Below, piece by piece: positions 22,923-50,765 of a stretch of 51,058 bases of DNA. This stretch comes from Acytostelium subglobosum LB1 (taxonomy: Eukaryota > Evosea > Eumycetozoa > Acytosteliales > Acytosteliaceae): NCBI RefSeq assembly GCF_000787575.1, contig NW_012236519.1:463886-514943 (forward strand), written 5' to 3'. The translations under genes were made by a program, and so were the position numbers. Position 1 is the stretch's first letter, and every line of letters starts with the position of its first letter. Under the pieces are notes generated by a model. The model did not search any database. It had not been told where the DNA came from and worked only from the letters and a program-made list of their open reading frames with translations.

Positions 22923-24664
22923 CACTATATTCTATCTGTCTTATTATCTATCTATTATATAACTTTGATTGATTAATGAATGAATTCTCAACTTCAAAGA
23001 TGAAGAATGTTTTGGCGCCAAGTAAAAGAATCGGAACTTCTTCAAATTCAAAAGAATCCCAACAACAACAAACTCAACAATGTGCAACATCCTGCATTCC
23101 CAAACACTATTCATAAAGATACAATGTTAACAAATGGTTATTGAATATAACAAAGAGTTGAAGCCATTGGAGAAGGCATTGGAGGAATGTAAGAAGTCGG
23201 CACTGTTTTGTTGTCAGGGCGAGTCAGAGTTGCCAATGCCAAGGATCGACGTGAAGGATGTTGGTGTGCTATCATTCCCAATGTCACAACAACAACTGCA
23301 GAGTATGATAGTCCAACGTGCGACACATTGTGATGGCAAAGGATCACATGTATGGCAGATACAGAACACAGACATCAGCATCACTGGTCGTCACTTCCAC
23401 ACGTTCTTTGACAGAGTGATCGTTGCCATCACGGCGTCGATGGGTCTGACCAGCGAGAAAGTGACAGCAGAGTTGTACAAGATGCTCATATATGAAAAGG
23501 GCAGCGACTTGAAAGGAATTGGGGCCGAGAAGGCTGACAAGATGTTTGGAACACTCGTGCTCTCGTTGCCTTGCGCACATCGTGGCGGTGACCTGGTCAT
23601 CAAACATTCAGGTCGCAATGAAGTGGTGTCATTGGAGAATGACTCAATGTCAGCGATCAAATGGACAGCATTCATTACTGATTGTCAACATGAAGTCAAG
23701 CCAGTCACTGAAGGCAATCGAGTGTGTCTCGTTTACAATCTCATGCGATCCGGAGTCAAGAAACTAAATGTCAACGTCAACTATGCTGCGCCAATCATTC
23801 AATCATTGAACCGTATCTTTGCTATCAATCCGCCAGTGCCCCCGAAACGAACAAGTGAAGAGGGCATAAGTGCAAGTAACAAGATCACCAAGAAGGCCAA
23901 GACCTCGACTACGACTACATTGACGACCATGATGGATGAATTCCAAGATGAGGACAAAGATCTTGGTAAAAGACCTGAGAAGCTAGTCTATGTACTGGAG
24001 TACGAATACTCAAAGTCCGACTTCACTTTGGATTCACTCGATGGTGTTGACGCACTCTTGGCTCGTCAGTTGATGTTAATATCCGAGGAGGCACAGATCA
24101 AACTTGGTCTGGCATTCATGCACATTAATGAGTATGTATGTATGTTGGCTGTCTGACTGGTGACTGGGTACTCACTCATTCATTCACTCGCTCAGGTCTG
24201 GAGAAACAAAGAATGGCATTAAGGAGCAACGTAGATTATATTTTTCCCTTAAGAATGTCAAGGATATCGAGACTGGTGAGATGATCATTGACGCAAATAC
24301 ATCATTGGAATACAAGGAGCTAATTTCTGAGGATTGTTGGAACAGTTTCATACCGGACAAGGAGGAAAATGATCATGACACCTACTCTAGGTACTACAAA
24401 TTGTCAGCATTGTTGATATGGAGCACCGCGGTCAGTGGCAAGTTCACCATGGTCAGTTCAGTGGACATTGCTCTCTATACTCTAAACAGGGAGTTGGTTA
24501 GTCTGGGCGGCATCGATGCCAACCCCTGTCGATCGCTTGACCTCTTCAGAGCAATGTGCACCTCCTTGGAAAGAATCAAGCAGAAGACTCCCGAGTATGT
24601 CACCTCGTTGCTCTCAATCCTATCCACAATCAAAGATGATCGATACATGCCCGACTACCTCAAG

Positions 24665-24667
24665 TGA
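24665..24667 (+). other. In-frame TGA in copy A
   Basis: TGA between DYLK and MLVGI, where copy B reads DYLSCMLVCI; family sequence continues in frame after it (to about 24918). Confidence 0.85.
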
Positions 24668-24917
24668 ATGCTGGTTGGCATTGACAAATTATTCGAGACA
24701 AACATACATATGGACTCGTTCTTGGAGCTGGTGCTTCGCAGACCGGCAATGACACCCGAGGCAGTGACTGAGGTGCTCAAACTGTTTGTGTCACGACATA
24801 TCAAATTTAATGGAGCGTTTGATCTGTTGGACAGGCTGTTGGTGCTTGACAAACCTCCAGTCCACTTCTCCACGCTGATACCAACGCTGGCCAGACTGAT
24901 TGCTGGAGAGCTGCACA

Positions 24918-25305
24918 GCAACAGGAGAGCACCAGCGCGGTTGAGAACTAATTGATCAGTGTAACATAGTTTGGTGACGAACTCCTCTATGTGTGTGCCA
25001 TCCAGGTTCACTGCGCGCCATATGATATGCAAACCATTGGCGATGGCTACGTCATCTTTCCAATATTTAAAACAATCTTGGATGTCATTAACATATTTGG
25101 CGAGTATCTTTTTGAAATCACTGCCCTGGACCCATTCTGGATGTGCTGCGCTGACTCTCTCCAACGGTGTCAAAACTCTAAGATTTATCCATGCACTGAA
25201 ATGGTTTGTAATATTGACCACAAACTTGTATATATCATTCAGTATTCCATCTGTGATGTATATTGGTGCAGTCACATTTCTGATCGACTGGCCATACTTC
25301 TCCAA
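24918..25305 (-). repeat. Inverted family segment inside copy A
   Basis: On the minus strand this 388-bp piece reads as the family region from VEKYGQSIRNVTAPIYITDG through HPEWVQGS and IIWRAVNLDGTHIEEF to ALLLLC. It is homologous to plus-strand sequence of copy B at 28290-28720 and, diverged, to the adjacent plus-strand part of copy A at 25305-25650. Left breakpoint is near GELHS (24915-24920), right near YITDG (25303-25308). The pair forms an imperfect head-to-head arrangement. The segment may come from a further, lost paralogue. Confidence 0.85.
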
Positions 25306-26307
25306 TTACATCACCGATGGCCTACTGCATGAGATGTTCAAGACTGTGGTGAAGAACTGCTGCGTCAAGACCATCCATGTCAAGGAACTTGTTACAACTT
25401 TGGCTCGGCTGGATAGAGTCACCGCGGCACATCCCACTTGGATCCAAGGAGTCGAGTACAAACAGTTGCTGGCGCGATTCGTTGAGAATACACTCTTCTA
25501 TAATTCCAATGATGACAATGTATCCGCCAACAACCTGAACATCATCTGGCATGCCTTGCACGCTGAGGGCACATACATCAAGACGTTCGCAACACAACTC
25601 TGCTCCAAAGACCAGTTCCCCAATAACACTGGTGCCCTCATATGTCTGCTCGGACTGCTGACCACAGAGTATGGCAACTCGCCTCACTATGCAAGCTTGT
25701 GGACCGTTGTCTCGACCAGCCAAATGAGGGTAGCCAGCATCAAGCCACCGCATGGCAATGAGGTACGCGGTAGAGTGTCGTGCACTTGTGTCAACTGCAA
25801 ATCATTGGTGCAGTTCCTACGCTCCCAACAGATGACCATGCATCTCAAGGCGAGGGTGTCTGACAGACATCTTCTTTCGTACTCTGCAAAGCCGTTCAAT
25901 CTCAAGTCCCAAACACTTGAGCACGGTATGCCACGTACGCTGGTGTTGACCAAGACCGCCGAGATGATTCAGAGCCAGAAGGATGCACACACTAAAGCCG
26001 TCAACTCCTGCCGTAAACTGCTTCAACTCAAACCAGCTGGCAAAGATGCGGTTGCACTTGAGGCGCTGGTCGGCACCGCCTCCCTCACACTTCCAGCTTC
26101 ATCAACTTCAACGACACAGACTTCGACTGGTGTCAAGAATGAGATAATAGAGTTGGACTAACCATTGATCAATCATTATTTATACATTCCAGGCTGAGTC
26201 CATGACAAAGTCGGCCGATCAATCAAATCAAACCATAAATGTAATTGGTGTGGACGACTCACACGAATTTGATCACTTTGTTTCAACATAACAATCACAT
26301 AACATAA

Positions 26308-29265
26308 ATGGTAATATTTAACAAAGAGTTGAAGCCATTGGAGAATTTACTTAAGGAATGTAAGAATGGTGCACTGTTTTGTATTAAGGGCAAGACAGAG
26401 CTGCCAATGCCAACCATTGAGGTGAAGGATGTTGGTGTCTTGTCATACCCAGTGCCACAACAACAGATACAGAGTATAGCAGAACATTCTACGGGTGAAC
26501 CTGATGTCAAAGGAACAAACCGGATAGTGCAACAAATCTGGCATATACCGAGCAAGGACATCACCATCACTGGTCGACACTTCCACTCATTTTATGAAGG
26601 CGTTATCCATTCAATCACAGAGTCGATGGGTCTGACCGGCGAGATAGTGGCAGCAAAGTTGTACAAGTTGGTGGTCTATGGCAAACACAGCTCCTTCCTG
26701 CCACAACGCGACTCTGAGAAGGCTGACAACATGTTTGGAACACTCATGCTCTCGTTGCCCTGCTCACATCGTGGCGGTACCCTGGCCATTACTCACTCGG
26801 GCAAGAAGATGTATGTGTCATTGGAAAACGACACTGTGTCATCTATCAAATGGACAGCATTCTTTGCTGACTGTCGACACGAGTTCATACATGTCACTGA
26901 AGGCAATCGAGTCTGTCTCGTTTACAATCTCTTTCGATCTGGAGTCAAGCAACCAAATGTCAAAGTCAACTCTACTATACCGATCATTCAATCACTCAAT
27001 CATATCTTTGGTGTCAAGCCTCCAATGCAACCTATACCCGATCTGAAGGTTGAGGTTGAGGGTGATGATGATAACAAGATCACCAAGAGGGCCAAGACCT
27101 CTACCAGCACAACAGTGACCACAAAGGTAGAGATGGAAAAGCAGGCAGGCAACGATGCTCAAAGACTCGATAAGATAGTCTATGCACTGGAGCACGTATA
27201 TTCAATGTCCAACCTCACACTGGAGTCACTCAAGGGCAATGACGCAATCTTGGCCCGTTGGTTGTTGTCAATATCCGAGGAGGCAAAGATCAAACTTGGT
27301 CTGGCATTCATACACAACGAAACGTATGTAGCTGGCTGGTTGACGGTATGATCAAGGGACACTCAAGCTCACACCCTCGACTACAACGGCCATCTTAGAT
27401 ATTTGGCGATTAGTAGGCATAGTAGCAAAGAGGAGCATTGCTATACTAATCTGACACTGGAGGATGTCAAGGATCTCGAGACAGGCGAGATCATCACCTC
27501 TAAATCATCAATTAAAGAAAATGAGCTAATGCCCGAGGATTGTTTGGACTTTAACAATCCGTTCAAGGAGAAGTCCAAGAGTGCGACGTGCAAAAAAGAC
27601 GGCCGCGTAGAGAGGTTCTACCGACAGTGTGCATTGATGATATGGAGCACGGCAGTCAATGGCAAGTTCACGATGGTCAGCTCAGTGGATGCTGCCCTGA
27701 TCATTTTCAACAAGGAGCTGAACGAGCGAGGGGGCATTGATGCCAACCCCAAGTTATCAATTGACATGTTCAGAGAAATGTTCTCATCCTTGGACCGAGC
27801 CAAAATGACTCCAGATCATGTTACAAAGATGCTCGTGATCCTGTCCAGAATCAAAGACGATCGATACATGTCCGATTACCTCTCGTGCATGCTGGTTTGC
27901 ATCGGCTTGGCCTTCAGGTCCAACATTCATTTGGACCCGTTCTTGGAGCTGGTTCTTCACAGACCGTCAATGACACCAGAGTCAGTGACTGAGATGATCA
28001 AACAGTCTGCGTCAGAACATGTTGCATTGGACTTCTCACTCAGTCTGTTAGACTGGCTGTTGCTCGAGCACAATCCGCCAATACCGGCACACTTGACTAC
28101 ACTCATACCAACGATGGTTATTATGATTGCCGGAAAGCTGGACTCTTTGGCACGATGCGATCAGCTGATCGTCACAATCAACAAGCATGCTGTGTTTGAG
28201 AGGCAACGCCAACAACTCCTGGATAATATCATACAGATAGCTCACAAGATACTGTTGGCCACCCAGTCGAAAGAGATCAATCAGATCATCATGTATGTGG
28301 AGAAGCAAACCGAGTCTATCACTAATGGCACCGCACCAATATACATCACAGATGGCCTACTGCATGAGATGTTCAAGATGGTATTCACAAGCGCTTGCAA
28401 TAGTTACACCGATTACATCCGTATCACAGATCTTGTTCCAAAGTTGGCAATGGCGGAGAGAGTGATGGCAGCACACCCTCTTTGGGTACAGAGTAGCGAA
28501 TTCAAAGAGATGCTCTCTAAACTAGTTATTGGTGATTTAGATCGATATCTTTGTTATTGGTCAGATGTCCAGGAAGTCACCAACAACCTGAACATCATAT
28601 GGCGCGCCTTGCACACTGATGGAACACACATCCAGAAGTTTGTAGCGCAACTCTGCTACAGCAAATCTCTGTCTTACAAACATGATAGGGTGCTCCTATG
28701 TCTGCTCAGATTGCTACACACTGCCTATGTCAACTCGCCACACTATGCAACCTTGTGGAACTATCTATGCACTTTCTTTGTGGGTGTCCAGCCACCCCAA
28801 CTCAATGAGATACGTGGTACAGTGTCTTGCACTTGTGACCATTGTCAATCACTCCAGCAGTTCCTTAGATCACCACAAGTGTCAATGCAACTCAGGGCGA
28901 CTGAGCCTATGAGGCGTCATCTTTCAAAGTCAGCCGCAGAATTCAATCTCCATAACATAACACATAAGGGCTCAAATCCACACACTCTGGAGTTGTCAAA
29001 GACCTTCGACATGGTTCAACAACAGCAAGATCATTACGTCCGGACAGTCAACATCTGCCACAGCCTACTTAAGCTCAAACCACCAGGCACAGTCGCGCCA
29101 GTGCTTGTCTCCCTAGTCAGCAATACTACGCCTCCATCTGTTTACCCTCATACCTACATCCAGGCAACCTCAGCCACTGCCCCGCCTCCAACCTCAATGA
29201 CGTCAACAACATCAACTATAACGCAATCAACAATCTACATGGTCAAGAAAGAGATCTTACAATAA
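26308..29265 (+). CDS. Array copy B: 2OG-Fe(II) dioxygenase-like protein, probable pseudoenzyme
   Basis: Exons 26308-27323 and 27399-29265 (960 residues). The open frame is intact. In the head, LPHRDSEK has become LPQRDSEK, so the first iron ligand is Gln133 (Asp135, His191 and Arg201 remain), and the upstream APYGKGTETITDLNVRR block is degraded. Without the first His, iron binding is doubtful. The linker is short with little acidic content and KRAKTS. Exon 2 fuses what are two exons in C-G and lacks GNEGG, keeping VERFYRQCALMIWST. The C-terminal module has CTCDHC (28828-28845) and CHSLLKL. The tail ends VKKEILQ, a psi-K-x-E site. The stop lies 13 bp from the stop of the convergent ankyrin-like gene. 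Confidence 0.8.
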
Positions 29266-29278
29266 TACAATTTATTAA

Positions 29279-31693
29279 TTAGTTAGTAAATGCTGGAACG
29301 ACAATGCCATTCTCGATAAGAAGTATTTGGTAGAGGTTGTAGTCGTTGTCATTGAATGGTTTGATGATTGAACGATACTTGTCGTAGAGGATGTTGTTAC
29401 TGTTGAATAACTGGACATTGGCATCAATAGATTGTATCGGGTATTTATCCACTTGTATTCCTCTCTTGATCCTCTCCAACGTCGGAGGTACGATGTATGG
29501 CAGTTGTCCAGGTTCGGACAGCGGAAGAACTGCATCAAGTATCGTTTGGTAAAGTGGAAATCCAAGTGAGACCTCTTCCAACAATCGATTGATGAACTGG
29601 CTACTGCGCTTGGAGGCTGGATCAATGCGCTCAAAAACAAACGCAAAGAAGTCCTTTAAACGATCATCCTTGTTAAGGTTCAGAGTCCACATGCAATCTT
29701 CAAGGTATAAAGTGAAGACACTGGCTTTAATGTATTGGCGAGCGCGATCAATGTTATCGCCAGAGTGATTCAGTATTGCTTGTTCATCAGTAGACATAGA
29801 CAATATGTAGTCGATTGTTTGATAATTGAATGTGAGCAATGCGCCAATCATATCTGTTTCAGGATTCGAATGGAATCCATTGTCCTTGAGGAACTTGATC
29901 ACCCTGATGTCTCCACTACGAAAACAAACGTCCTCGATCAAACTTTGATTCTTAACCGATGGGTCATAGAGCTTGACCACCAGGTCATATACTCCTAATC
30001 TGGCGGCGGTCGTGAACAATGTATGCCTGTATTGATGGGCATGTCCATGCGCACAGAACATATTCAGTGTTTCACGCGAGATGTTGAATGGACCAGTGTA
30101 TAATCGTTGAGGAGGAATGACAGTGAAGCTATTTGGCTTGAGTAGTTTGAGCACCTGGTCTTGGAAATCGATTGAGCACTTGGATAGTGCTTCCAAATCC
30201 AAGTTTAGGAACACAAACTTATCATACCGATTGTTGATCAGAAGCCGTACCGCCTCCTCATATTGTTGTTTGATCGCTTCATTCAATGCCGCATGCAGGT
30301 CGATGTGAAGATGGTTGATAATCGATGTGTTGCACAGCATCTCTTCAAGGCGCAATATGACATCCATGCGTCTGGCAATGATTGCCTGTTTGTAAACCTC
30401 CGAGAAGCTGCACTTGATCAAAGTGCTAGACTCCAGAAGGTAGTCCATCATTTCCATAGTGTGCTCATTCATCATGAGTTGAGTGACAGTCCACTTGGTG
30501 TTGGTTCCACACTTGATGTCAACTTGCTTGCATAGCGGACCAATGTGCTCGATGACATAGCGCACCCATTCGAAGCGTCCTTGCTCCAAGGGAATGTCCA
30601 ACAATTCTTTCTGACCAAATGAGAATGGACAATTGTTCTGATGATAATATGATGGAGTTGATACCGCCACCTCAAGATCTGAACGGATGTATCTAAGGTA
30701 GTCAATGTTTCCAGAGATAGAGGACTGGTGCAAAAGATTGTATAGCATGTACTTTCGTTCGTTGGACACTTTAGGAAGTTTGTACTCGATCTTGCCGAGA
30801 GCGTATTCATCCCCGTACCTTGCCACTGTTGTGTGGAACTTGTCTCGATCAATGTGGCGCCAACCCTTGTCGATGATGCGTAGAGCCACACGGCATCGCT
30901 TGTGGAACAACGCCAGACCCAGCAGTGTGATGTAGAACTCTCCATCCAGGTCGGTACCATCGGTGAGCATGTGATAATAATCAAATAGTTCAATGATTGT
31001 TGCGCTGGACTTCTGCTTAAAGATTGCTGTATGAGCGCTGTTATTGGGGTCTGCCTCTCCGCTCAAATGCTTGAGAATAGATGAGCGATGGCTCCAATTG
31101 AGCTTGACGATGGATACGAACAACTCGATATCGGCATGGTACCCGAGTGCAGACACTGCCATCAACTTGACTATGACTGAGGGCAAGGTCCATCCACCAT
31201 CCATAAGCTGCTTGATGAATGAATGATTTAGAGATACGATTGGATCATGTTTAGTGTCTTTAAACAGGTCCTTGAGTATGTTGTTGATTGGATTAAGTTG
31301 GTCAGAGTCTGGTGGCATGGCAACAAATCGATCAATGATAAAGCCAAAGATCACATTGTTGTTTGTGACGATAGACTGCTTGATCGTCTGTCTGATAGTG
31401 TAAGCTAGTACACTGTATGTACTGGTTCCTAGAGGGTTATCAAGTAGTACACCCAACAGAAGGTTGTGGCCAGCCTCATTATTTATGTACAACTTGTTGA
31501 AGAATCGAATGAATCGTTGATTATCACCTGCTGTTAGGCATTGTCCGAGTGTTGATATGTCTCTACCTCTGATCATACTCAAGTCCATACTCTTGTTAAT
31601 CATTGAGATGAGACTAGAGACCTTGTTTCTCGTGATTACATTGATCAAGAGTACATGACGGACCAAGTCCATCAGTCTCTCATCCCTCTCCAT
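29279..31693 (-). CDS. Large ankyrin-like repeat protein of a dictyostelid family
   Basis: Single exon, 804 residues, ATG at 31693. The N-terminus (LMDLVRHVLLINVITRNKVSSLISMIN) is helical. From about residue 300 onward there are degenerate helix-turn-helix repeats resembling ankyrin units (LLHQSSISGNIDYLRYI, DIPLEQGRFEWVRYVIE, ALNEAIKQQYEEAVRLLI, FTTAARLGVYDLVVKLY, FRSGDIRVIKFLKDNG). Such long, weakly conserved ankyrin-like proteins are abundant in social amoebae. Function is unknown; no signal peptide or membrane segment. It sits on the opposite strand between array copies B and C, so it entered or was trapped within the array. Confidence 0.65.
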   Translation of the reverse strand: MERDERLMDLVRHVLLINVITRNKVSSLISMINKSMDLSMIRGRDISTLGQCLTAGDNQRFIRFFNKLYINNEAGHNLLLGVLLDNPLGTSTYSVLAYTIRQTIKQSIVTNNNVIFGFIIDRFVAMPPDSDQLNPINNILKDLFKDTKHDPIVSLNHSFIKQLMDGGWTLPSVIVKLMAVSALGYHADIELFVSIVKLNWSHRSSILKHLSGEADPNNSAHTAIFKQKSSATIIELFDYYHMLTDGTDLDGEFYITLLGLALFHKRCRVALRIIDKGWRHIDRDKFHTTVARYGDEYALGKIEYKLPKVSNERKYMLYNLLHQSSISGNIDYLRYIRSDLEVAVSTPSYYHQNNCPFSFGQKELLDIPLEQGRFEWVRYVIEHIGPLCKQVDIKCGTNTKWTVTQLMMNEHTMEMMDYLLESSTLIKCSFSEVYKQAIIARRMDVILRLEEMLCNTSIINHLHIDLHAALNEAIKQQYEEAVRLLINNRYDKFVFLNLDLEALSKCSIDFQDQVLKLLKPNSFTVIPPQRLYTGPFNISRETLNMFCAHGHAHQYRHTLFTTAARLGVYDLVVKLYDPSVKNQSLIEDVCFRSGDIRVIKFLKDNGFHSNPETDMIGALLTFNYQTIDYILSMSTDEQAILNHSGDNIDRARQYIKASVFTLYLEDCMWTLNLNKDDRLKDFFAFVFERIDPASKRSSQFINRLLEEVSLGFPLYQTILDAVLPLSEPGQLPYIVPPTLERIKRGIQVDKYPIQSIDANVQLFNSNNILYDKYRSIIKPFNDNDYNLYQILLIENGIVVPAFTN

Positions 31694-31847: not shown

Positions 31848-33841
31848 TTAGTATGCTTGTGACATGATAACCTTGGGATTGGCTGGCATCGTTGTGTTGT
31901 AGCCGTAGGGTGTCCAGAGTAACTCCACCTTCTTGAGTACCTTGTCACCTGGACAGTTCTCAACGATGAACTTGGTGCTGTAGCCACTGGTTGGATTGGT
32001 GTACGACTCGTAGATGTCTGGACTCATTGGTGTGTTTGACTTCCTCAGACCGGTCTGAAGCAGCTTGACCCACATGGAGCCATCAGCGTAGGTGACGCGC
32101 ATTGTGTAGTCGCATCCACTGCCGTGGCACCACCATGGGAACGTGCCCCTGTTGGGCACGATCAGGTCCAACTGAGACTGGTCTCTCGGATCGATCCAGC
32201 GTCGAAGGTTGCCAATTCTCTTGAACACGGGGTAGATGATCGAGCAGTCGGTGCATGGGGACGTGTCGGCGGTGATCAGATGCATCATGATCGTGTACAT
32301 TGGCCTGTTGCGGATGTAGGGGAAGCCGCTGTCCATTGAGTTCTTTGAGTTGTTGGTGATGATGTACTCATCGTACCTTAGCTCAATGTTGTTCCAGAAC
32401 AAGTACTTGTCGTTGGCCTCGTCGTAGACAATGTTGGTGCCCGATGGTGAGTAGGAGCCATCCTTGTTGACCTTTGTTGAGCCCTCTTGCCAGATCTGCA
32501 TGCGACCAATGTTGTAGTCGGCAAACATTGTGAATGGCTTGCCGCGGACCTGGTAGCCAGCGCCACCCTGCATTGGATCCTGACGAACACACTTGCCATC
32601 ATCAATCACAGCAGACTTCTTGCAAGTGGAGTAGTAGCTAGAGTTGGTTGGTGCGTAGATTGACATGAAGTTGTTGGACAAAAAGTCAAAGCCTGGCTGT
32701 GAGCCAAGCAAACTTCCATTGACGTATGGGTATCCCTCGGGGTAGGCTTCGCCAGCATGCTGTAGAGGTTGAGTGAGTGAGTGAGTATAGTGTATCATTG
32801 ATGAGGATGCAGGCAACTTACTGGAAGACCAAAGGCATGTCCCATCTCGTGGATGAAGATACCAGAGTAGGATGAGTCGCCAACGCATACACCACCACCG
32901 ACGGAGCCAAGACCACCACCAGGGCCACTGTAGCGGTTGGGTGCACCTGTTTGGTTCATGGCAACGAGGGGCACGTACATCATGTAGTTGAGTGAGCCAT
33001 CGCCGTTGGCTGCACGGAGGCCACTGAGAATGCCAAGGATCTCACCCATCATGTCGTAGCCATCCTTGAGCTGAGCGGCTCCCGTCAGCTTGTAGGCTGG
33101 GCGTGCACCGTTTGACGAGATGATCATCGATGGGAGGCTCATGATACCAATGTCGTGGTTCTTGATGATGAGCTTGGAGACGGGCCAGGTCTGGTAGATC
33201 GAGTCGTAGGTGAACTCGGTCACGTTGCTTGCCTTGCTGTAGGGGATTGAGTTGGTGTCGTTGGCGCCAAACATGTAGAAGGGCAGCAGGTCCAGGATGA
33301 ACGTTGAGTTCCAGCCGACCAAGGGATAGACAGCATCGGATGTCTTGTTGTTGACGACGATCTTAACGCCTGGCACGACGTACTGTGCAGGGATGTTCAA
33401 CCAGTATGTGTTCTCGTAGATGGCGGTGCCATTGGACTCGACTGAGGGCAGGGTGCTGGGCGGGTTCAACTGGATCGAGGTGGCGTACTCGACGTGCTCG
33501 GTGTTGTTGACGGTCCATGTTGCATTGGGCGTGAAGAAGGCGACGTAGGGTGGGGGTGCGTCAGGGTCGAGCTTCATCTTGATCGGCTTGATCATGAGCA
33601 TCGTCAGTCTGTTGCCAACGAGATGGAGAGCAGAGTCGGTGCCAGTCAAGTTCCATTTGAGGCCTTGTGCGGGTATGACATGTGTTTGTGCAAACAATGT
33701 CTCAAAGTTTGGTTTCTTATTCTCTTCATTATTATCATTCTTTCTCTTTGTCAACACAATAGTTGTTGGAATGACAATGGCTGCGATCACCAACAGCGCG
33801 ACAACAACCACAACAGCGATGATGATTTTTTTTGAAACCAT
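31848..33841 (-). CDS. Dictomallein-like M66 metalloprotease, membrane-anchored
   Basis: Exons 33841-32822 and 32759-31848 (643 residues). The N-terminus is a short cytosolic MVSKK, a hydrophobic helix (residues 6-31), then a basic/acidic stretch: a type II signal anchor or uncleaved signal. The zinc site HEMGHAFGLPH spans the intron: His331, Glu332, His335, Gly338 and His341 match the M66 HExxHxxGxxH motif of StcE and dictomalleins. Upstream Asn-x-Thr sites and a GGGLGSVGGGVCVGD loop fit an extracellular domain. Downstream Cys residues (CPGDK, CHGSGC) may form disulphides. Dictomalleins are putative secreted or surface proteases of Dictyostelium; the substrate is unknown. Confidence 0.88.
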
Positions 33842-38211: not shown

Positions 38212-40534
38212 ATGGAGATAACATATAATACCAATCTTAAACCATTACAGGATGCATTGGCGCTATGTGACAAGGGCTCGTTGTTCTGTGTGAAGGGCGA
38301 GAAGGAGTTGCCAATGCCAAAGATAGTGGTCAAGGATGTTGGAACGATGTCATTCCCAGTGACACAGGAGCAGGTACAGAAGTTGATTGAACGAGCTACT
38401 CGCGCACCATATGGCAAGGGAACAGAGACGATCACAGATCTCAACGTGCGACGTGTCTGGCAGTTACAGAACACAGACATCAGCATCACTGGCAACAAGT
38501 TTGACAAGTTCTTCAATGGCGCGATCAATAGTGTCAAGGAGACGATGGGTCTGGCCGGAGAGACAGTGACAGCAGAGTTATACAAGATGCTCGTCTATGA
38601 CAAGGGTGGCTTCTTCTTGCCACATCGCGACTCTGAGAAGGTGGTCAAGATGTTTGGAACACTCGTGCTCTCGCTGCCTTGCTCGCATCGTGGAGGCGAC
38701 CTCGTCATCACGCACTCGGGCAAGCAAGTGGTGGTGTCATTGGAGAACGACACAGTATCATCGATCAAATGGACAGCATTCTTTGCTGACTGTCGACATG
38801 AAGTCAAGCCCGTCACTGAAGGCAATCGAGTGTGTCTCGTATACAACCTCATGCGATCAGGTGGACACAAGCTCATGCTCAGCTCAGACTCAGGCGAGCT
38901 CATTACCAACGCACTCAACAAGGTGTTCTGTGTACAGACCAAGAGAAAGAAGAACAACGCACAGAAGCCATTGGTCATCGATGATGAAGATGACGAGGAA
39001 GACGAGAATGATGACGATGAGGACGACGAAAATGATGCCAAGGTACTCAAGAAGTCAAGGACATCAACAACGACAACAACTACTACCAAGACAGCTGCAT
39101 TAAATTCGGATGACGAGGATGACGAAGATGACGAGGATGACGAATCGGATGATAGCGATGACTATCATCACAATGTTGTTGGTAACAATGACAAACCAGA
39201 GAGGATAGTCTATGTACTCGAGCATGTCTACTCAATGGCCAACTTCACTATGGCATCACTCAAAGGCAAGGATGCAGCACTGGCACGAGCACTATTGGCC
39301 ATTTCCAAACAAGCCAATATCAGACTGGGCTTGGGATTCATAGATTGCATGGAGTATGTATGATTGAGCGAACGAGTGAGTGATTGGGCAACACTAGTTA
39401 ACAATCATACAATGACAACAAGGTCTGGAGGATACTATCATGAACGTGGTCAATCACCTGAATATCTAGACATTGATGACACAGAGATGTCATTGAGGGA
39501 TGTCAAGGATATCGAGACAGGAGAGTTAATCGATGACTATTTGGAAGTGAATGAGGAGCAGCTCATGCCCGACGGATGTTTGGATGACATCAAACCCTAC
39601 AAAGAGGAGGCTGAGGAGGCGACAGGTATGTACTATCATGACCCCAGCAATCAATCAATCAATCAATCAATCATCACTTACTCACTCACTCATTCAAACA
39701 GGTAATGAAGGTGGAACATACGAGAAGTTCTACAGACAGTCAGCCATCGTGATTTGGAGCACTGGTAACATGGGCAAGTTCTATAATGTCAAGACAGTGA
39801 AGGGTGCTTTGATCACAATGAATAAGGAGCTGACCGGAATTGGTGGAATCGATAAAGACTCTTTGGCAACACTTGGTCTGTTCAAGAAAATGACAAAGTG
39901 CCTCCACAGTGTTCCAGACAAGATCTCCAGCGACCTCATTCCAATGCTCTCACTCTTGCTCTCAATCAAGAAAGATCAATACCTTCCCAAAATCATCACA
40001 ATGATGCTTCGAACATTTGGTCCCGTATTCATTCCAAACTTGCATCAAGACGCATTCCTTGAGCTGATCCTGACGCGACCATCCATGACACCGACAACAG
40101 TACTCCAAACAATGTATCAACTTGTCAAGCATGTCCCAGTAGAGTCGGCAATTGGAGTGATGATCAAGGTGATGGACATGTCCAACCCTCCCGCGCACTT
40201 TGCCACATTGCTGCCGCAGGTGATGGATCTCATCGCGGGTGGACTACGAACAACGCCACAATGCAATCACCTGACACATCGAATTAATAACTATCCAGTG
40301 TTTGAACAACAACGTCAATCACTGTTGGACAAGGTGTCGAGGAGTGCCGACGCCATCAACAAAAAGTTGTCCAGTGGTAATGTTGTACCTCCATCAATGC
40401 CCTACACCTTTTCATCCAGTGGTCGATACAAGCAGCAAGCCTTCAAGACTCCTCCAAGTACACGTCTCAAGCAACAAGCTTTCAAGAACCCACCAAGGTC
40501 ACATGACGTCGAGATCATTGACTTGGACGATTAA
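38212..40534 (+). CDS. Array copy D: short 2OG-Fe(II) dioxygenase lacking the C-terminal module
   Basis: Exons 38212-39353, 39423-39625, 39702-40534 (725 residues). The head is complete: LPHRDSEK (His138, Asp140), CRHE (His196), GNRVCLVYNL (Arg206). The linker holds long Asp/Glu runs and KKSRTS. The EATG/NEGG block and first helical part are kept up to VFEQQRQSLLDKV. The frame then departs from the family: about 250 residues including CxCxxC are absent, replaced by a basic stretch with two QQAFK(T/N)PP units. It still ends VEIIDLDD (40508-40534), a SUMO-interaction-like tail also found in E. The stop is natural with no family sequence after it, so this is a deletion, not a nonsense truncation. 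Confidence 0.85.
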
Positions 40535-40780: not shown

Positions 40781-43700
40781 ATGAAGTTACAGTTCAATAC
40801 TAAATTGCAACCATTACAGGATGCTTTGGCAAAGTGCGACAAGGGCGCACTTTTCTGTGTGAAGGGCCAGAGTGAGTTGGCAATGCCAAGGATCGAGGTC
40901 AGTGATGTTGGTGTACTGTCATTCCCAGTGACACAGGATCAGTTAAAGAAGATGGTGGAACGTGCCACACGTGCACCATATGGCAAGGGAACAGAGACGA
41001 TCACAGACCTCAATGTGAGACGTGTCTGGCAGATACAGAACGCAGACATCAACATCAGTGGTGAGCAGTTCAACGTGTTCTTCAATGCTGCCATCAAACA
41101 CATCAAGGATACGATGGGTCTGGCTGGCGAGACAGTGACAGCAGAGTTGTACAAGATGCTCATATATGACAAGGGAGGCTTCTTCTTGCCACATCGTGAC
41201 TCTGAGAAGGCTGCCAACATGTTTGGAACACTCGTGCTCTCACTGCCATGCTCACATCGTGGCGGTGACTTGTTCATTGCTCACTCGGGCAAGCAGGTGG
41301 TGGTGTCATTGGAGAACGACACTGTGTCATCGATCAAATGGACAGCATTCTTTGCTGACTGTCGACACGAGGTCAAACCCGTCACCGAAGGCAACCGAGT
41401 GTGTCTCGTTTACAACCTCATGCGATCAGGTGGTCACAAGCTCATACTCAGCTCAGACTCTGGCGAGCTCATAACCAATGAGTTCAACAAGTTGTTCTGT
41501 GTCAGAAAGGCTAAGAAGGTGTACAGGCCAAAGGTTGTTGATGATGAGGATGATGATGATGATGCAGTGGCCGCCAGAAAGGTCCATGATGACGATGAAG
41601 ATGATGATGAGGATGCCAAGGTGCTCAAGAAGGCCAAGACTTCACCGACAACTACAACATCAACCAAGATTGAAGGTGACAAAGAGAATGACGACGATGG
41701 CGATGATGATGATAATGATGAGGATATTGATGCCGAGTTCAACTTGGAAGGAGCCAAGGATAGAATGGAAAAGATTGTTTATACATTGCAACATGTGTAC
41801 TCGATGGCCAACTTCACATTGGAATCACTCAAGGGCAACGATGCTGTACTGGCTCGAGCACTATTGGCCATATCCGACAAGGCCCAAATCAAGATTGGCC
41901 TAGCATTCATTCACCTCAAGGAGTAAGTGTGCGAACCATAGGGTCATGAGTCCATCAACATTCAAGTGTCTAACCATTATCGAACCAAAACAGAGAAGGA
42001 GGATACTCGAATGAGTATGGAGGTCCTGAATACTATAATCCAGAGGCAGAGTTGACGTTGGAGTATGTCAAGGACATCGAGACTGATGAAGACATGGATT
42101 TGGATGAAGATATGACAGTGGAGGAATCAGAGATCTTGCCCAAAGGCAGATTGGATAACATCAAGCCATACGAAGAGGAGGCCGAGGAGGCAACAGGTAC
42201 GACCTATATCAATCAATCACTCATGGACTGGAAATATCCCAATCACTCACTCACTCAATCACTTATACTCAATCAATCAATCAATCAATCATATAGGCAA
42301 CGAAGGTGGAACATACGAGAAGTTATACAGACATTCTGCTTTGGTGATATGGAGTACGGCGTATACCGGCGTGTTTACGATGGTGGAGAACCCTGATGTT
42401 GTATTCCAAATGTGGGATGACGAGTTGGAGGAGATGGGTGGCATCGATGCCAACCCAAGGGCGACACTGGAGCTGTTCTTCAATATGCTCGTATGCCTCA
42501 ACAAGTTACAGAAGAGCCCTCAACAACTCGAGTCAATCTTAGCAATTCTGGGCGAGAACTCATCAAATCGCTACTTGCCCAAGCTCATCTCTTTGGCGAT
42601 TCAGTCATATGGGCCACAGTTTTCTGGGAGATTGCATGGGGATATCTTGATCGAGATACTACTTGATCCATCGCTGCGATCCATGACGCCCGACACAGTC
42701 TCCAAAACAATCACTCTACTCTTGCGATACGCGCCACCTGGTGGAGTGGTCGACTTGTGGTGCAAGATGTTGGAGGTCCCCAACCCACCGGAACACCTGT
42801 CCACTCTACAGTTGCATATGGTACATCAGCTCAAGGACAAAATATTCATCTTGGAGCAATGCGACAAACTCATCCAGGCACTCAACACACACGCCATGTT
42901 TGCACAAGAACGCCAAAAACTTGTGGACATGACCTGTGCCAAGGCAACTGCCATCATGAACATTGAGATGGCCAAAGGCACCTTCCCATCATCGCTCAAG
43001 GAGATTGAGCGATTGCTCGGATTGGTCGCCACAGGTGTCGCACCAAGCTATGTGTCGCTGCCCCGGTTGAAGGAGCTGTTCAAGATGGTCGTCCAAGGGT
43101 CTCCTCCAGATCTTCACATTATGATTATGCGGACACCCTATTTGATGGCCTCCCCACGATGGAGCGTATCGTCACAGTTTATCCAGACTGGGTAGCACAG
43201 GACACTGGATACAGGACTTTTCTCACAAAGTTGTTTGACCCAAATTCATATTATTCCTATCGTCGCAATGACAATCACAATGTCAACATCATGAATTTGG
43301 TATGGAGGGCTGTACACGCCGAGGGCACACTCATGGAGCAACTGTTTGGCGTACTCGCCAAAGTCACATGGAAGCCGGTCGCGCACATCATGCTACTCGC
43401 ACTGCTTCGCAACGCATTTGTGACCTCGCCACACTACTTCCGATATTGGGACATGGTGACGAGCAACAACCTGGCAGTGGCATCCATCCCCCCGCCCACG
43501 GGCAACATGTTGGGCGGCGCTGTGACATGCTCCTGCAAGCTATGCAAGAAGTTTGTCAAGTTCATACGCTCGCAAGATCTCAGCAGGAAGTTCATGGGCA
43601 CGGAGACTGAACGAACCCATCTGATGAACTACAAGGCCGAGTTTGGTCTACAATATAAAAACACTGGCAAAGGTGATGTAAGGACATTGGAGCTGAGGAA

Positions 43701-44061
43701 GACTATGAATGACAAAGCTTACACTGATCAGAAGAAGGCACAAGATGAGCATGCCTTGGCCTGCAATCTCTGCCACAGTCTACTTCACCTCCGACCTCAA
43801 CCGGACAACGTCAACGACACCATCAACTTGCTCAACAGCGTTGTCCTGTCGACACCTCCACCAGCAGTATATCCTCACACCACAGTCCAAGTCACCACTC
43901 CCATCACCAGCATGAACATAGGAGGTGGCGCTGGTGCTGGGGTTGGCGTGGCCCATGCGCCAGCCGTTGCGCCAGTCGCTCCAGCTGTTGGTGTGCCGCC
44001 ACAAGCCCGGCCTCCTGTAGCACAAAAGCATATAGAGATCATTAATTTGGACGACGATTAG
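40781..44061 (+). pseudogene. Array copy E: 2OG-Fe(II) dioxygenase with a single frameshift in exon 3
   Basis: Exons 40781-41922, 41994-42196, 42297-44061. The head is intact: LPHRDSEK (His138, Asp140), CRHE (His196), GNRVCLVYNL (Arg206); linker Asp-rich with KKAKTS. Exon 3 follows the family from NEGGTYEKLYRHSALVIWST to LKELFKMVVQGSP, then shifts frame between about 43090 and 43125 (length is one base short of a whole frame). In the new frame it resumes YDYADTLFDGLPTMERI and continues to the end, with CSCKLC (43528-43545), CHSLLHL and tail HIEIINLDDD. Left uncorrected, translation stops at 43193-43195 and loses the zinc-like module. Recent mutation or sequence error both fit; no splice pair resolves it. 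Confidence 0.8.
43090..43125 (+). other. Frameshift site in copy E
   Basis: Family similarity passes from one plus-strand frame to another within this window, equivalent to one missing base. The left frame ends with a stop 70-100 bases later. Confidence 0.75.
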
Positions 44062-44332: not shown

Positions 44333-46726
44333 GGCACTCAGTTCTGTGTGCAGGGCGAGACAGAGTTGCCAATGCCAAAGATAGTGGTCAATGAGGCAGG
44401 CACATTATCATATCCAGTGACACCAGAACAGGTACAGAAATTGGTTGAACGTGCCACACGTGCACCATATGGCAAGGGAACAGAGACCATCACAGACCTC
44501 AATGTGAGACGTGTCTGGCAGATACAGAACACAGACATCAGCATCACTGGCAACAAGTTTACCGAGTTCTTCAATGGTGTGATCAACAGCATCAAGGAGT
44601 CGATGGGTCTGGCCGACGAGACAGTAACAGCAGAGTTATACAAGATGCTCATATATGACAAGGGAGGCTTCTTCTTGCCACATCGTGACTCTGAGAAGGC
44701 CGTCAAGATGTTTGGAACACTCGTGCTCTCACTGCCATGCTCACATCGTGGCGGTGACTTGGTCATTGCTCACTCGGGCAAGGAGATGATCGTGTCGTTG
44801 GAGAATGACTCGATATCATCGATCAAATGGACAGCATTCTTTGCTGACTGTCGACATGAAGTCAAGCCAGTCACCGAAGGCAACCGAGTGTGTCTCGTAT
44901 ACAACCTCATGCGATCAGGTGCTCGCAAGCTCGTTCCAACTCCAAACTCAGACGGTCGCGTCGTCGATGCTCTCAACAAGGTGTTCTGTATCAAGGTCAA
45001 GAATGAGGATGATGAAGGTGACGATGATGCCAAGGTGCTCAAGAAGTCAAAGACATCGACCACAACTACAACATCAACCAAGGTGGATGATGATGACAAT
45101 GATGATTACCCAGAGAAGATAGCTTATTGCTTGGAACACGTATACTCGATGGCCAACTGCACATTAGAGTCGCTCAAGGGTAACGACGCATCCCTTGCGC
45201 GAACATTATTGTCCATTGCCGATAAGGCCCAGATCAAGCTAGGCTTCGCATTCATTCATTGCACAGAGTAAGTGTACCACGTGGACCAATGGAGATGGCC
45301 ATCGATGGCGGACACTAACACAAACTCTTCCTCTTAGGTCTGGACCATATGAAGGAGGATACTATGGTGAGCAATACGGTGATGTAGAGGATAAGAGTCT
45401 TACGTTGACCGAGGTCAAGGACATGCTCACTGGTGAATATCTAAGCAATGAAATGGAATTGGACGATGCTGAGCTCATGCCCAATGGATGTATGGAGGAC
45501 GTCGACCCCTACGATGAGGAGGCCGAGGAGGCAACAGGTATGTTATAATAATTCAATCAATCAATCATTGCTACATGGAACTATTCCAATCTCACTCATT
45601 TGATCAATCAATCAATCAATCAAACAGGCAATGAAGGTGGATCATTTGAGAAGTTCTATAGACAATCAGCCATTGTGATATGGAGTACTGCACGTACGGG
45701 CGTGTTCACAATGGTCGCCTCTCTACAGTCAGCTTTGAACATCTTTAAAAGGGAGGTGAAAAAGCTTGGCGGAATTGATGTCAATCCACAGGCAACACTT
45801 GATCAGTTCACCAAGATGATGGAGTCGCTGTTCAGACTGAGAGCCAAATATCCTGACGATCTCACCTTGGTACTCACACTGCTGGCCACGATCAAAGACG
45901 ATCGGTTCATGCACAAGCTCTTGAAGCAGATCTTGCAGAGATATTGTGAATACTTCACTTTGAACCTCCACCAGGACCTCTTGCTCTCACTCCTTCGGCG
46001 TCCATCAATGACGCCCGAGGCAGCAACCGAATTAGTCAAGCTTGCCCTTCACCATTCTACATTCGAGACGTCCATGGCCATGTTACTCGCCATGCTGGCT
46101 GTGCCCAACCCTCCCGCCAACAACGCCACAATGCTACCCGCGATAGTCCAGCTGACCTCTGGCAAACTCAAGACGATGCCACAATGTGATCAACTCAGGG
46201 AGTGCATCACAAAGCATGCCGTGTTTGAACAACAGCGTACAGCACTCATGGCCCCAATTGATGCGATGGTGTTCAAGGTCTGGCAACAATCACTCGATGT
46301 GATGACCTTCACCCAGAAGATCCAGGAGATTGATCGACTGCTTGTGAGCCTGGCCACAGGAGCCACTCTCCCCAACTACATGTCCATCGCCAATCTGAAG
46401 ACCACGTTCACGTCGTCAATCCTAAAGAGCTCCACTGTACACTCCTACTATACAAACAATGTCTGGTCGACCATCTTGCCCGCACTCCCGATTCTGGAGC
46501 GCATCAAGGCGGCCCAACCAGAATGGATTACACAGGACCCCAACTACAGCAAGATGCTATCAATGCTGTTGAAGTATCAACCGAATTATTTCGACGACAA
46601 TACGAATGCCAACAACTTGAACATGATATGGCGAGCACTTCACTCGGATGGCACCGGACCACACATGCCAGGGCTCATCAGTATGATCACCCAGGCCAAC
46701 TTCATATCGGCTAGCGCTCACATCAT

Positions 46727-46925
46727 GCTGCTTGCTCCACATCGCGTTTATCGACTCGCCCCACTACTCCTTGTACTGGGACTACGTCGCGCGCATCAAC
46801 ATTGCGACGGCCTCAGTCCCGCCTCCCACGGGCCACGAGATACGAGCCAACATTTCATGCCCATGTGCCAACTGCCAGCAGTTCTCTCAGTTCTGTCGCT
46901 CACCAGTTATCACAATGTGTATACA
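46727..46925 (+). other. Out-of-frame patch between two compensating frameshifts in copy F
   Basis: Before and after this patch the family frame is shared; inside, the family sequence lies in the next frame (+1 entry, -1 exit). Exon 3 keeps a whole number of codons overall. Confidence 0.8.
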
Positions 46926-47391
46926 CTCAGAGCCAAGGAGACTGATCGACGTCATATCCTACAGCTTGTGAATCAGTATCGAAATGTCTTGAGTTATACT
47001 ACCTCGACAACAGGCACACCCAGGACATTGGAAGTGAGAAAGATTACATCCGCCATCACACACCAGGCCGAGAGGGAGAAGCACACTACAGCCTGCAACA
47101 ACTGTCACAGCATACTACAACTCAGACCACCTGGCAGGTTCAGCGACGCCCTCACTGGCGTTGTGGCGAACACTCCAGCTCCAATAGTATATCCTCACAC
47201 CAGAGTCCAGCCCACCACTACCATCACCAAGATCAATGCTACGGTCGCAGCCCCACAAGCCCCACAAGCACAACAAGCACAAGGACAGCCAGCAGCCCCA
47301 CAAGCACCACAAGCACAAGGACAACCAGCACCAGTCCCAAAGCAAGAGGTCATCAACGTGGATTAGATTATTATTATTATTATTATTAATA

Positions 47392-47401: not shown

Positions 47402-47461
47402 ATTCCAATGGCTGGTCACCATCTAGTGGTCCATCTGGTGTACGTGTGTGAGTGTGGTTGA

Positions 47462-47480
47462 GTCCTCAGGACCTGAGGAC
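47462..47480. promoter_or_regulatory. Perfect palindrome GTCCTCAGGACCTGAGGAC
   Basis: Nine-base arms with a single central base, about 105 bp upstream of copy G. Candidate dimer-binding operator; not seen in the other spacers. Confidence 0.4.
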
Positions 47481-47584
47481 CGCAATCAATCAAGGCTTAA
47501 CTGGCTCTTGTCCTTCATTCATATTCCAACCATTATCAAGCAGACATATACACATAGAACATTATCACAAATATTAACAAGAGG

Positions 47585-50500
47585 ATGAAGATAAGATATA
47601 ATCCAGAGTTGGGAGTGTTGGAGAAGGCGTTGGCGGATTGTAAGAAGGGTGCGATGTTCTTGTGCAAGGGTGAGACTGAGTTGCCAATGCCAAGGATCGA
47701 GGTGAAGGATGTTGGTGTGCTCTCATACCCAGTGAGACAGGATCAGTTGCAAAGTATGATTGAACGAGCCACTCGTGCACCATTTGGCAAAGGAACAGAG
47801 ACAATCACAGACCTCAATGTGAGACGTGTCTGGCAGATACAGAACACAGACATCAACATCACTGGCATTGCATTCGAATCATTCTTCACAAGCATCACCA
47901 ACAGCATCAAGGAGTCGATGGGTCTGACCAACGAAGTGGTGACAGCCGAGTTGTACAAGTTGTTGGTCTATGACAAAGGCAGCTTCTTCCTGCCACATCG
48001 TGACTCTGAGAAGGCTGACAACATGTTTGGAACACTCGTGTTGTCATTGCCATGTCCACATCGAGGTGGTGACCTTGTTGTCAATCATTCAGGTCGTGAT
48101 GAAGTGGTATCATTGGAGAATGACTCAATGTCAACGATCAAATGGACAGCATTCTTTGCTGACTGTCAACATGAAGTCAAGCCAGTCACTGAAGGCAATC
48201 GAGTATGTCTCGTTTACAACCTGTTGAGATCAGGTGGTACCAATGTGGACATCAACATCTCATCCGAGCCCATCACTCAAGCATTCAATCAAGTGTTTGG
48301 TCTAGTCTCCAACAAGGCAGATGAAGATATGGAGGAGGGATCATCCGGCTCCAAGAGTGACAATGAAGATGAAGAAGACGACGATGACAACAACAACAAC
48401 AATGATAACAAGATCATCAAGATGGCCAAGACATCACCAAAAACAAACAAGACAACAAAGTATGATTTTGGAGATGATGATGATGAGTCACATTCGTCAG
48501 CAGACAATGAATACCGCGATGAGTTTAATGAAGAGTATGAAGAAGAGGAATACTATGAAGATATGGACAAGGATGAAGGTGAGGGTAAATATATTCCCGA
48601 GAAGATAATATATTCCCTGGAGCATGTCTACTCGCTATCCAACTTCAGAATTGAGTCACTCAAAGGTGGTGATGCGACCCTGGCACGCACCCTACTCGCC
48701 TTCTCCAATGAGTCCCGTATCAGACTGGCCCTATCATTCATTCACATCACTGAGTAAGTATCCACCAATGAATCAATCATTCAATCATACTAATAGATAA
48801 CATTATACAATAGAAAGGGAGGTGGGGAATGTATGGTTGATCCAAAAGATACAGTAGTCGTACTGAAGGATGTGAAGGACCTTGAGACTGGAACTATCCT
48901 GGAGGAGAAGATGAAGTTCAGTACAAAGGAGATCCTGCCCGATGGATGTCTAAAGAGTATCAAGCCATACTCTTTGGAGGCACAAGAGGCAACTGGTATG
49001 TACAAGCAAACAATCAATCAATCAATCAAGGAATATGCTCTAACTCTTAAACAAATGGACAGGCAATGAAGGTGTGTCATTTGATAAATTATATAGACAA
49101 TCAGCTATTGTGATATGGAGCACTGTGGAGATGGGCAAGTTCACTATGATCAGCTCAATGGATGTTGCGTTGGAGATGTTGGAGAAGGAGTTGACCAAGC
49201 TTGGTGGCATAGATGCCAACCCTTTGGCAACTCAACAACTGTTCAATCAATTGTTCAAAGCGATGTACAGACTCAAGCCAACTCCACAAAATGTAACCAG
49301 GTTACTCAATGTTCTCCGATCGATCAAGCCTGGCCATGACCAGCACCTCCCCATGCTACTCCAAACCATGTTGCAGACTGTTGGTGGCCAGATTCAAACA
49401 GACCTACATCAGGATGCCCTCGTGGAGATGATTCTCCAACGACCAACAATGACCCATGAGTCAATCGAGAGAGTGATGTCTCAGTTTGTGTCATCTGCCC
49501 CACAGAGTGCTGTCATGGACATGTTTTCCAAGTTGTTGGTATTGTCCGAGCCGTCCACTGCCACAGTGTTACCCATGTTTGCCGATCAAATCATTCCAAG
49601 GCTGACCAAAACAGATCAATGTGACCAACTGATTGATATCATCACATCTCATCAAGTGTTCAAAGAACAAAGACAGCACCTATTGGACAGGATCATTGTT
49701 GTGGCGAGGGCGATGTTCAGACCAAAGTTGAACAGAACGAGGTACATGCAAGGCAATGATCGAGACTCCACCTTCCACACGACCATCTCAATGATCGATC
49801 ATTTCTCCACGGCACTCAACAATGGCAAGGCGCCAATCTACTTCACGGACGCATTCCTGGGCGAGACATATCGCAAAGCGATCAAAGTATTGATCCAAAC
49901 AAACCAAGGCTACCTTAATTTTAATATTGTCCTGCCTGCCTTTCAGATCATGGAGCGCATCACTGCCGCCCATCCAGAATGGATCGCCGGTGACCAGAAA
50001 TACATTGAGCTCCTCAAGAAGCTGAGCGTGTTCCGGTCAAACTTCCATTCACACAAACACAACCAGATTGCCAACCAACTGTTTGTGATCTGGAAGGCAC
50101 TCCACAATCAGGAGGCCATCATCAATGACTTCCTCGGCCATCTCTGCTCCAAGCCACATCAGACATTTGGTATTGGTAACGTGGTATGGACTGGATACCC
50201 ACATCAATCACTCTTATTATTGCTTGGACTGTTGCATGAACACTACTCCAACTCGCCACAATATTCCAAGTTATGGGAACATGTTGCCAAGTTGAACTTA
50301 GAGAAGTCCACGACCAAACCAGACCCCAATGACAAGTCGATGGATGTGGAGATTCATTGTGAATGTGAACAATGTGGCAAGATCAAGGTGTTCCTCCAAT
50401 CACAGGATGAGGTGCTGGACTTGCCAATCCATTATTATCGTCGTGAACATGTTGAAACAAATATCGGCCAACTCAAACTGGATCAAAAGAAGGAGAGAGA

Positions 50501-50765
50501 CACCAACAATCGTGAGATGTGGAACATGGTATTGACCAAAACAGATGAGAACAAACATGCCAAGATGAACAAGTATGTTGAGGTGGTCAACAACTGTCAC
50601 AGTCTGTCAAAGATCAGGCCAACAACCACCCCGTCCAGCGTCATCGAGGTTGTCCAGAAGCTTGACGCAGTTGTCGCCGCAACACCCGAACCACAAAAGT
50701 ACCCTCATCTCAAAGCCAAAGTGAAGACCATCCCTCTTGGTCCCAAAGAACTAGTACACTACTGA
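47585..50765 (+). CDS. Array copy G: intact 2OG-Fe(II) dioxygenase without SUMO-like tail
   Basis: Exons 47585-48753, 48814-48995, 49063-50765 (1017 residues). Head ligands are present: LPHRDSEK (His138, Asp140), CQHE (His196), GNRVCLVYNL (Arg206), with the APFGKGTETITDLNVRRVW block. The linker is acidic with Asn and Tyr-Glu runs (about 240-335) and KMAKTSPKTNKTTK. Exon 2 ends QEATG; exon 3 begins NEGVSFDKLYRQSAIVIWST. A helical region with HPEWIAGDQKY follows, then CECEQC (50358-50375) and CHSLSKI. Unlike A, D, E and F it ends in a basic stretch and ELVHY, without a SUMO-interaction-like tail. With C it is the best candidate for a working full-length member. Confidence 0.87.

Follow-up and report, generated by a model that had tools for sequence, protein, structure and literature searches.

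What is encoded by a row of paralogous genes that each join an oxygenase head to a multi-part C-terminal tail, and how has such a row evolved? The question is raised by a stretch of 51,058 nucleotides of contig NW_012236519.1 (C43) of Acytostelium subglobosum LB1, positions 463886 to 514943, here called the window; the genome comprises 30.7 Mb in 56 contigs. The central observation is that the array heads resemble each other far more than the tails of the same genes do, also at synonymous sites. We lean slightly toward reading the locus as an old 2-oxoglutarate (2OG)-Fe(II) oxygenase family that has expanded in tandem in dictyostelids, with heads kept alike by gene conversion and tails diversified for targeting, the products of which would be nuclear protein hydroxylases, perhaps acting on proline.

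A tandem array of twelve oxygenase genes

Seven paralogous oxygenase heads, A to G, lie on the + strand between positions 23134 and 50765 of the window, starting at 23134, 26308, 34568, 38212, 40781, 44333, and 47585. They are 55 to 76% identical to copy D. An earlier reading made from the sequence alone (the sequence-only reading) had described a seven-copy array; its seven heads were confirmed, but not its extent. A genome search with copy D revealed five further heads, H to L, downstream of the window at contig positions 517022 to 532992. The whole array thus holds 12 copies (C43, 487019 to 534922), and three dispersed members, S1 (C43), S2 (C17), and S3 (C38), bring the family to 15 heads. 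Eleven copies have an open tail (B, C, D, F, G, H to L, and S2), and these tails differ pairwise at no fewer than 46% of residues, which shows that the array copies are not duplicates made by the assembly.

The origin of the expansion was explored with a head tree, built with a quick method and midpoint-rooted, of 63 rows (15 amoeba and 48 bacterial), limited to heads with the F..HRD pattern. All 15 amoeba heads fell into one clade with a Shimodaira-Hasegawa-like approximate likelihood ratio test (SH-aLRT) support of 100. As far as these data go, this indicates a single origin, in line with the lineage expansion proposed earlier.

Divergence of heads and tails within the same genes

Head cores and tails were compared codon by codon in all pairs of the 11 open-tail copies; A and E, which have interrupted tails, and S1 and S3, for which no comparable tail was at hand, were left out. 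In the 15 pairs among G to L, the heads showed an amino acid identity of 0.77 to 0.93 and differed at 0.11 to 0.29 of four-fold sites, and the tails an identity of 0.36 to 0.54 and a four-fold difference of 0.34 to 0.64. Four-fold divergence was greater in the tail in every one of these pairs, by 0.17 to 0.48, versus an excess of at most 0.15 in 70 pairs of bacterial relatives used as a control, from which homologues of 700 amino acids or less or lacking two landmark motifs and pairs sharing fewer than 8% of 5-mers had been dropped. Fisher tests of head against tail gave p values of 1e-9 for G-H and 9e-12 for G-J, and of 0.55 and 0.44 for two pairs with S2. The D-F pair behaved in the same direction (head 0.23 versus tail 0.51, p = 0.001). 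Homogenization is weaker at copy C, given that its head differs from those of the other compared array copies at 0.37 to 0.45 of four-fold sites.

The position of the change was located along copy G, where the four-fold difference is 0.07 to 0.25 in sliding windows up to codon 280, 0.49 to 0.71 in the remainder of this exon, beginning at codon 261, and 0.40 to 0.66 in the tail (the linker windows overlap and contain few sites). Divergence therefore jumps at the linker, within exon 1. In a BLASTN comparison, G and H were 91% identical in a match of 739 columns that opens 18 bp upstream of the ATG and closes near codon 239; some 290 bp beyond it could not be aligned, and the identity thereafter was 67%. 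The 91% stretch of copy G (47567..48302, + strand) is the putative gene-conversion region. With K, copy G is 88% identical over 730 columns and 67 to 70% thereafter. The upstream sequences of the 11 copies share only short matches of 21 to 25 bp.

The four-fold difference between S2 and G to L is 0.62 to 0.66 in the head and 0.57 to 0.71 in the tail. Since the S2 head differs to this degree, synonymous sites in the head are free to change, and S2 together with the bacterial control rules out a mutational cold spot or codon constraint as the cause of the contrast. Gene conversion confined to the head, or repeated copying of a head cassette, would be the simplest account of these patterns. Among the matches listed in a literature search of titles and abstracts, neither this family nor head-confined conversion in dictyostelids was described, which does not prove absence.

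The same architecture in bacteria

When bacterial genomes were scanned with seven intact heads as queries, 29 loci emerged. Of their ORFs (open reading frames), 26 encode 746 to 868 amino acids and 21 contain CxCxxC, the cysteine motif of the amoeba tails; five Bacteroidota ORFs (L011 to L015) lack it, and L010, L022, and L024 are cut or short. These bacterial proteins of about 800 amino acids, named “2OG-Fe(II) oxygenase,” have the same parts in the same order as the amoeba proteins and belong to the same family. The idea of a multi-part C-terminus special to the amoeba lineage is therefore not supported: the architecture itself is not new to the lineage, and what is new is how the array evolves. 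The bacterial members differ from the array in that most genomes having the family contain one match, the acidic/basic linker is missing, and synonymous divergence is about equal in head and tail.

The family is widespread but sparse in bacteria. Homologues at an E value of ≤1e-40 were found in 6 of 288, 10 of 294, 8 of 395, and 9 of 398 genomes of four phylum samples, counts that each include the genome used as the center. Plasmids carry the family (23 records). Carriage by viruses or phages was not supported, as no relative was found in phage records (tblastn with L007) or in viral contigs (pattern-based scans with two alignments).

The nearest bacterial head in the tree is that of L007, from a metagenome-assembled genome of the Parachlamydiaceae, with a support of 94 (the mark given by the tool is 95). 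Next come L008 with L073 and L074, from the same phylum sample, at a fork with a support of 92 that is drawn open. Known chlamydiae of the Parachlamydiaceae live in amoebae, and for this reason gene exchange between an amoeba and a relative of this type, in either direction, is possible.

Head family and predicted fold

The profile search that the sequence-only reading had proposed for the heads did not come back without a 2OG profile: PF13640 scored above its curated cutoff in 12 of the 15 family heads, including five of the seven in the window (C, D, E, F, and G), which supports the assignment to 2OG-Fe(II) oxygenases. It also exceeded the cutoff at six places in the genome outside the family. 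Copy A scored 17.9 bits against a cutoff of 27, copy B was not among the PF13640 matches of the genome search, and the S3 head gave no PF13640 match at E ≤ 1e-5.

The HxD motif, the distal His, and the Arg are retained in 12 of the 15 heads; in the HxD...H...R arrangement the Arg has a role in 2OG binding. The proximal site is lost in the other three: copy A has neither HxD nor GTETITDLNVRR, copy B has QxD in place of HxD, and in S3 both the proximal His and the Arg are missing.

Other profiles were considered. The PKHD-type hydroxylase family YbiX/PiuC (NCBIfam PRK05467) does not accommodate the window heads, the best score being 23.5 bits against a cutoff of 143; NF003974 was matched at E ≤ 0.1 by 15 of 26 bacterial members, with a best value of 5.9e-5. 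Generic CRISPR-associated “2OG” models of PADLOC matched all 26 bacterial members, and single members matched its cyclase and ZorA models, neither of which was accepted as evidence of a defense function.

The structure of full-length L007 was predicted with AlphaFold, with 34 further rows as input (25 bacterial and 9 pieces from the window). The L007 model (predicted local distance difference test [pLDDT] of 86.8, predicted template modeling score of 0.78) comprises a head resembling a double-stranded β-helix (DSBH; residues ∼23 to 221), an α/β region (236 to 413) in which the last long strand follows a GNAG motif and carries YHRAA..W, a helical array (414 to 680), and an α/β module at CxCxxC (∼700 to 760). 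Among the Foldseek matches listed for this model against the PDB, the best was the EF-Tu prolyl hydroxylase PPHD, followed by PhyA of Dictyostelium discoideum and PHD2; within the best 50 rows the matches, which include OGFOD1, had E values of 6e-6 to 5e-4. Judging from the size of the matched proteins, they probably fall on the head. The prolyl hydroxylase-like head proposed earlier thus finds support in the predicted fold, by way of this bacterial relative and not of a window protein.

The PHD/PPHD-type prolyl hydroxylases (PHD2, D. discoideum PhyA, and the Pseudomonas EF-Tu hydroxylase) have in common with the array family the fold, as modeled for L007, and the HxD...H...R ligands. The array family differs from them in the α/β region, the α-solenoid, and the CxCxxC..H module that it adds. 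The ribosomal uS12 hydroxylases OGFOD1/Tpa1/Ofd1 were also compared. These are described as large multidomain 2OG oxygenases with a disordered acidic stretch, in which they resemble the array family, and as a subfamily limited to eukaryotes, in which they do not (PMC4396695). OGFOD1 (4nhy) ranked 21 among the fold matches of L007, with 523 columns aligned but a root mean square deviation of 22.1 and a TMt of 0.25. OGFOD1/Tpa1 have a second, noncatalytic DSBH directly after the head; the corresponding region of the L007 model (236 to 413) displays few strands, and the Ofd1 C-terminal family was not among the 17 Pfam families hit at E ≤ 1 by the 26 bacterial members.

Tail, candidate zinc-binding motif, and linker

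The earlier plan to predict the structures of copies C and G was carried out for the tail of copy G, modeled along with 15 further rows. The model (pLDDT of 82.9) predicts a helical solenoid followed by a small ββα CxCxxC..H module. Its PDB matches were varied and mostly solenoid proteins, PUF among them, none at E ≤ 0.001.

CxCxxC is present in 34 of 51 bacterial homologues of at least 700 amino acids, with a His 15 to 45 residues later in 33 of the 34 and a later CH in one. Among the 11 amoeba copies with CxCxxC, a His follows after 20 to 26 residues in 10 (none was found in K) and CH is present in 9. The motif and the His that follows are a candidate set of zinc ligands. Of the CxCxxC...CH module put forward by the sequence-only reading, the CxCxxC with its later His is kept, whereas the C-terminal CH is not a conserved part. 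In the last 60 residues of the seven window tails, six VKxE-like sites were counted versus a mean of 0.67 after shuffling. Four of them lie in the repeated motifs of copy C, with one each in A and B, and for this reason the C-terminal SUMO-type motifs stay a lead only. Copies A, D, E, and F have EIIDLD-like C-terminal tips, which we take to resemble a SUMO-interacting motif.

The amoeba proteins have an insertion between the head and the second domain. A KKAK-type motif, K(I/V)xK(K/R/M)(A/S)(K/R), occurs in 11 of the 15 linkers (not in H, K, S1, and S2), and 10 of the 15 copies contain a 20-residue window with 11 to 19 acidic residues. The corresponding stretch of the 36 bacterial relatives that have the H.YT landmark is 34 to 43 residues long with at most 6 acidic residues per 20, and the acidic insertion is absent in all 36. 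The basic motif and the acidic insertion fit nuclear targeting. The earlier proposal of a nuclear oxygenase agrees with this linker, and the proteins may accordingly be imported into the nucleus.

Gene neighborhoods of the bacterial members

The neighborhoods of 58 bacterial loci were surveyed. SNF2 helicases with strong profile matches were found at six of them (L020, L075, L077, L078, L079, and L096), and a neighbor at L025 gave a weak SNF2 match of 29 bits. SWIM-type neighbors were found by Pfam at L020 and by similarity at L075 (without a Pfam hit) and L079. In a control with 33 genomes, which together contain 100 SNF2 places, 6 of these places, in 5 genomes, were no more than 8 kb from the oxygenase; a random distribution would put 0.37 there (five or more have a Poisson p of 4e-5). 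As this proximity exceeds chance, the oxygenase of some bacteria may work close to DNA-bound machinery, which is not proof for the amoeba. The SNF2/SWIM neighborhood is a first functional lead for the bacterial family, and it is because of these neighbors that a link of the amoeba proteins to DNA-bound machinery may be considered.

Oxygenase relatives near a SNF2 (DUF3670) helicase and a SWIM-type protein were observed at L105, L020, L075, and L079, possibly a conserved bacterial module. Among four annotated plasmid regions, that of Bradyrhizobium has a DEAD/SNF2 helicase, a SWIM-annotated gene, and the oxygenase in a row, that of Acidiphilium has a WGR protein, and those of Microvirga and Thiodictyon have neither helicase/SWIM nor WGR. 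A protein related to the helix-turn-helix/PRiA4_ORF3 protein of L017 occurs at nine loci (two checked with Pfam), at eight of them upstream on the same strand. HsdR adjoins the gene of L088. The likeness to TOTE and other DNA-centered bacterial conflict systems consists of an AEP-TOTE primase-helicase near the oxygenase in 3 of the 58 loci, identified by Pfam at L008 and by BLAST similarity at L028 and L029; this is a small minority, and at L028 the gene lies on the opposite strand at a distance of 2.6 kb.

State of the individual copies

Among the seven window copies as sequenced, only C and G carry the full plan without interruption, reading through head, short exon, EATG/GNEG junction, helical region, and CxCxxC..H module. 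In copy C (+ strand, as all copies below) these are an intact head exon with linker (34568..35872), a short exon ending in EATG (35913..36098, approximate ends set by eye), and a tail with the GNEG strand, the helical region, the CxCxxC..H module, and a VKxE-rich C-terminus (36182..38077). In copy G, the intact head exon with linker (47585..48754) is followed by the modeled tail (49062..50762). The single gene plan that had been ascribed to all seven thus holds for these two, the other five having lost motifs or being truncated or interrupted.

Copy A has a degenerate head exon (23134..24153) and a tail with CxCxxC (24164..26158) that contains an in-frame TGA near 24665 and more stops near 24950. 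The QxD head exon of copy B (26308..27348) precedes an open tail with CxCxxC in which the GNEGG motif is lost (27430..29262). The head motifs are intact in D (38212..39360), E (40781..41923), and F, where the head is an open stretch (44333..45268) with an in-frame TGA just upstream of 44333. The tail of D (39698..40531) is truncated, lacks the CxCxxC candidate zinc module, and ends in VEIIDLDD; that of E (42290..44058) is in two frames, with a frameshift near 43090 to 43110; and that of F (45627..47363) has its CxCxxC region in another frame. The interruptions in E and F may be real or assembly errors. Copies H to L all have open tails with CxCxxC, and judged by head and tail for these five, 7 of the 12 array copies (C, G, and H to L) look complete.

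The array is broken up between copies B and C by two minus-strand genes of other families: an 804-amino-acid ORF with no Pfam match at E ≤ 0.001 (29282..31693) and a gene for a metallopeptidase of the M66 type, read as two ORFs that overlap (31851..33841). Of the dispersed copies, S1 (L004, 2189 to 4127) has intact head motifs and tail-like sequence on the opposite strand without CxCxxC, and it looks like a broken copy. S3 is adjoined on C38 by a gene for an FNIP-repeat protein; FNIP repeats are abundant in dictyostelids.

Alternative explanations

Several observations weigh against conversion-kept oxygenase heads with diversified targeting tails. The alignment of G with I is one continuous match (76.5% over 1809 columns) without a visible break. 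The head of S1, about 240 kb away, differs from those of G to L by only 0.18 to 0.57, depending on the window, and groups with K; since a distant head is this similar, array membership alone does not explain the likeness of the heads, and conversion, or else a recent move, extends past the array. The iron ligands are lost in 3 of the 15 heads, the tail is interrupted or truncated in four of the seven window copies, and part of the array may be decaying. The predicted fold matches are those of the bacterial relative L007, with the aligned part deduced from protein size, and there was no sequence-level match to any solved 2OG oxygenase. A SNF2, SWIM, or TOTE neighbor is missing from most bacterial loci, and the other neighbors (fatty acid synthesis-like, radical SAM, and AAA) are unrelated. 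Moreover, H-I and J-K, the pairs with the least saturation, give a ratio of nonsynonymous to synonymous substitution (dN/dS) of about 0.38 for the tail, and on that ground positive selection for new targets is not indicated.

This ratio fits relaxed purifying selection, and with it a tandem family of the usual birth-and-death type that serves a conserved housekeeping function, has tails under loose constraint, and undergoes head conversion as a side effect of the conservation of the head protein. Several array copies are broken, and in bacteria too the head protein is usually more conserved than the tail. We consider this account possible, though rather doubtful: bacterial pairs with 87 to 94% identical heads (n = 7) keep 78 to 88% in their tails, whereas array pairs with 87 to 93% heads (n = 9) keep only 39 to 54%, and the seven complete-looking copies retain open CxCxxC tails with a GNEG start. 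Exon shuffling instead of repeated conversion, with a recently duplicated head cassette placed before tails that were older and already different, is in our view unlikely. The similar stretches of G-H and G-K do start near the ATG and end at almost the same place in exon 1, but the heads diverge by degrees from pair to pair and less in the core (0.07 at codons 121 to 160) than at the edges, a pattern that repeated short conversions fit, and the tails align along their length (that of D being truncated).

Still less probable are two accounts that center on nucleic acids or the machinery bound to them. A head that acts on nucleic acid in the manner of TET/JBP or AlkB, with a tail that reads DNA or RNA, would agree with bacterial neighbors such as SNF2, SWIM, the AEP-TOTE primase-helicase, WGR, and HsdR and with the PUF proteins among the weak solenoid matches of the tail. 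The best of the listed fold matches are, however, protein prolyl hydroxylases, and Pfam scans of eight window ORFs and the 26 bacterial members hit neither TET_JBP (E ≤ 1) nor an AlkB family, so that we rate this account as very improbable. We give hardly more weight to a nuclear recognition system in which a head kept uniform by conversion, with many diversified solenoid/zinc tails, would act on different DNA-bound complexes, either foreign or the cell's own, such as the machinery of viruses or transposons, and would derive from a bacterial DNA-associated module partly still found beside SNF2/SWIM and TOTE.

Implications for the family

In the tandem expansion with conversion-kept heads that we lean toward, the head would bind Fe(II) and 2OG and most likely hydroxylate a protein, probably on proline. 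Binding of the target, or of the complex that contains it, is most likely the task of the α-solenoid and the CxCxxC...H module, and the acidic linker with its KKAK-type motif would carry the enzyme into the nucleus. Gene conversion would homogenize the array heads as linkers and tails diverge, the outcome being one chemistry kept constant and many targeting surfaces offered.

The array connects an uncharacterized oxygenase family of bacteria with a row of eukaryotic genes and presents, with controls, a case in which the enzyme part evolves in concert and the presumed targeting part of the same gene diverges. If the tails bind different partners, the array would be a natural set in which one protein-modifying chemistry is sent to many addresses.

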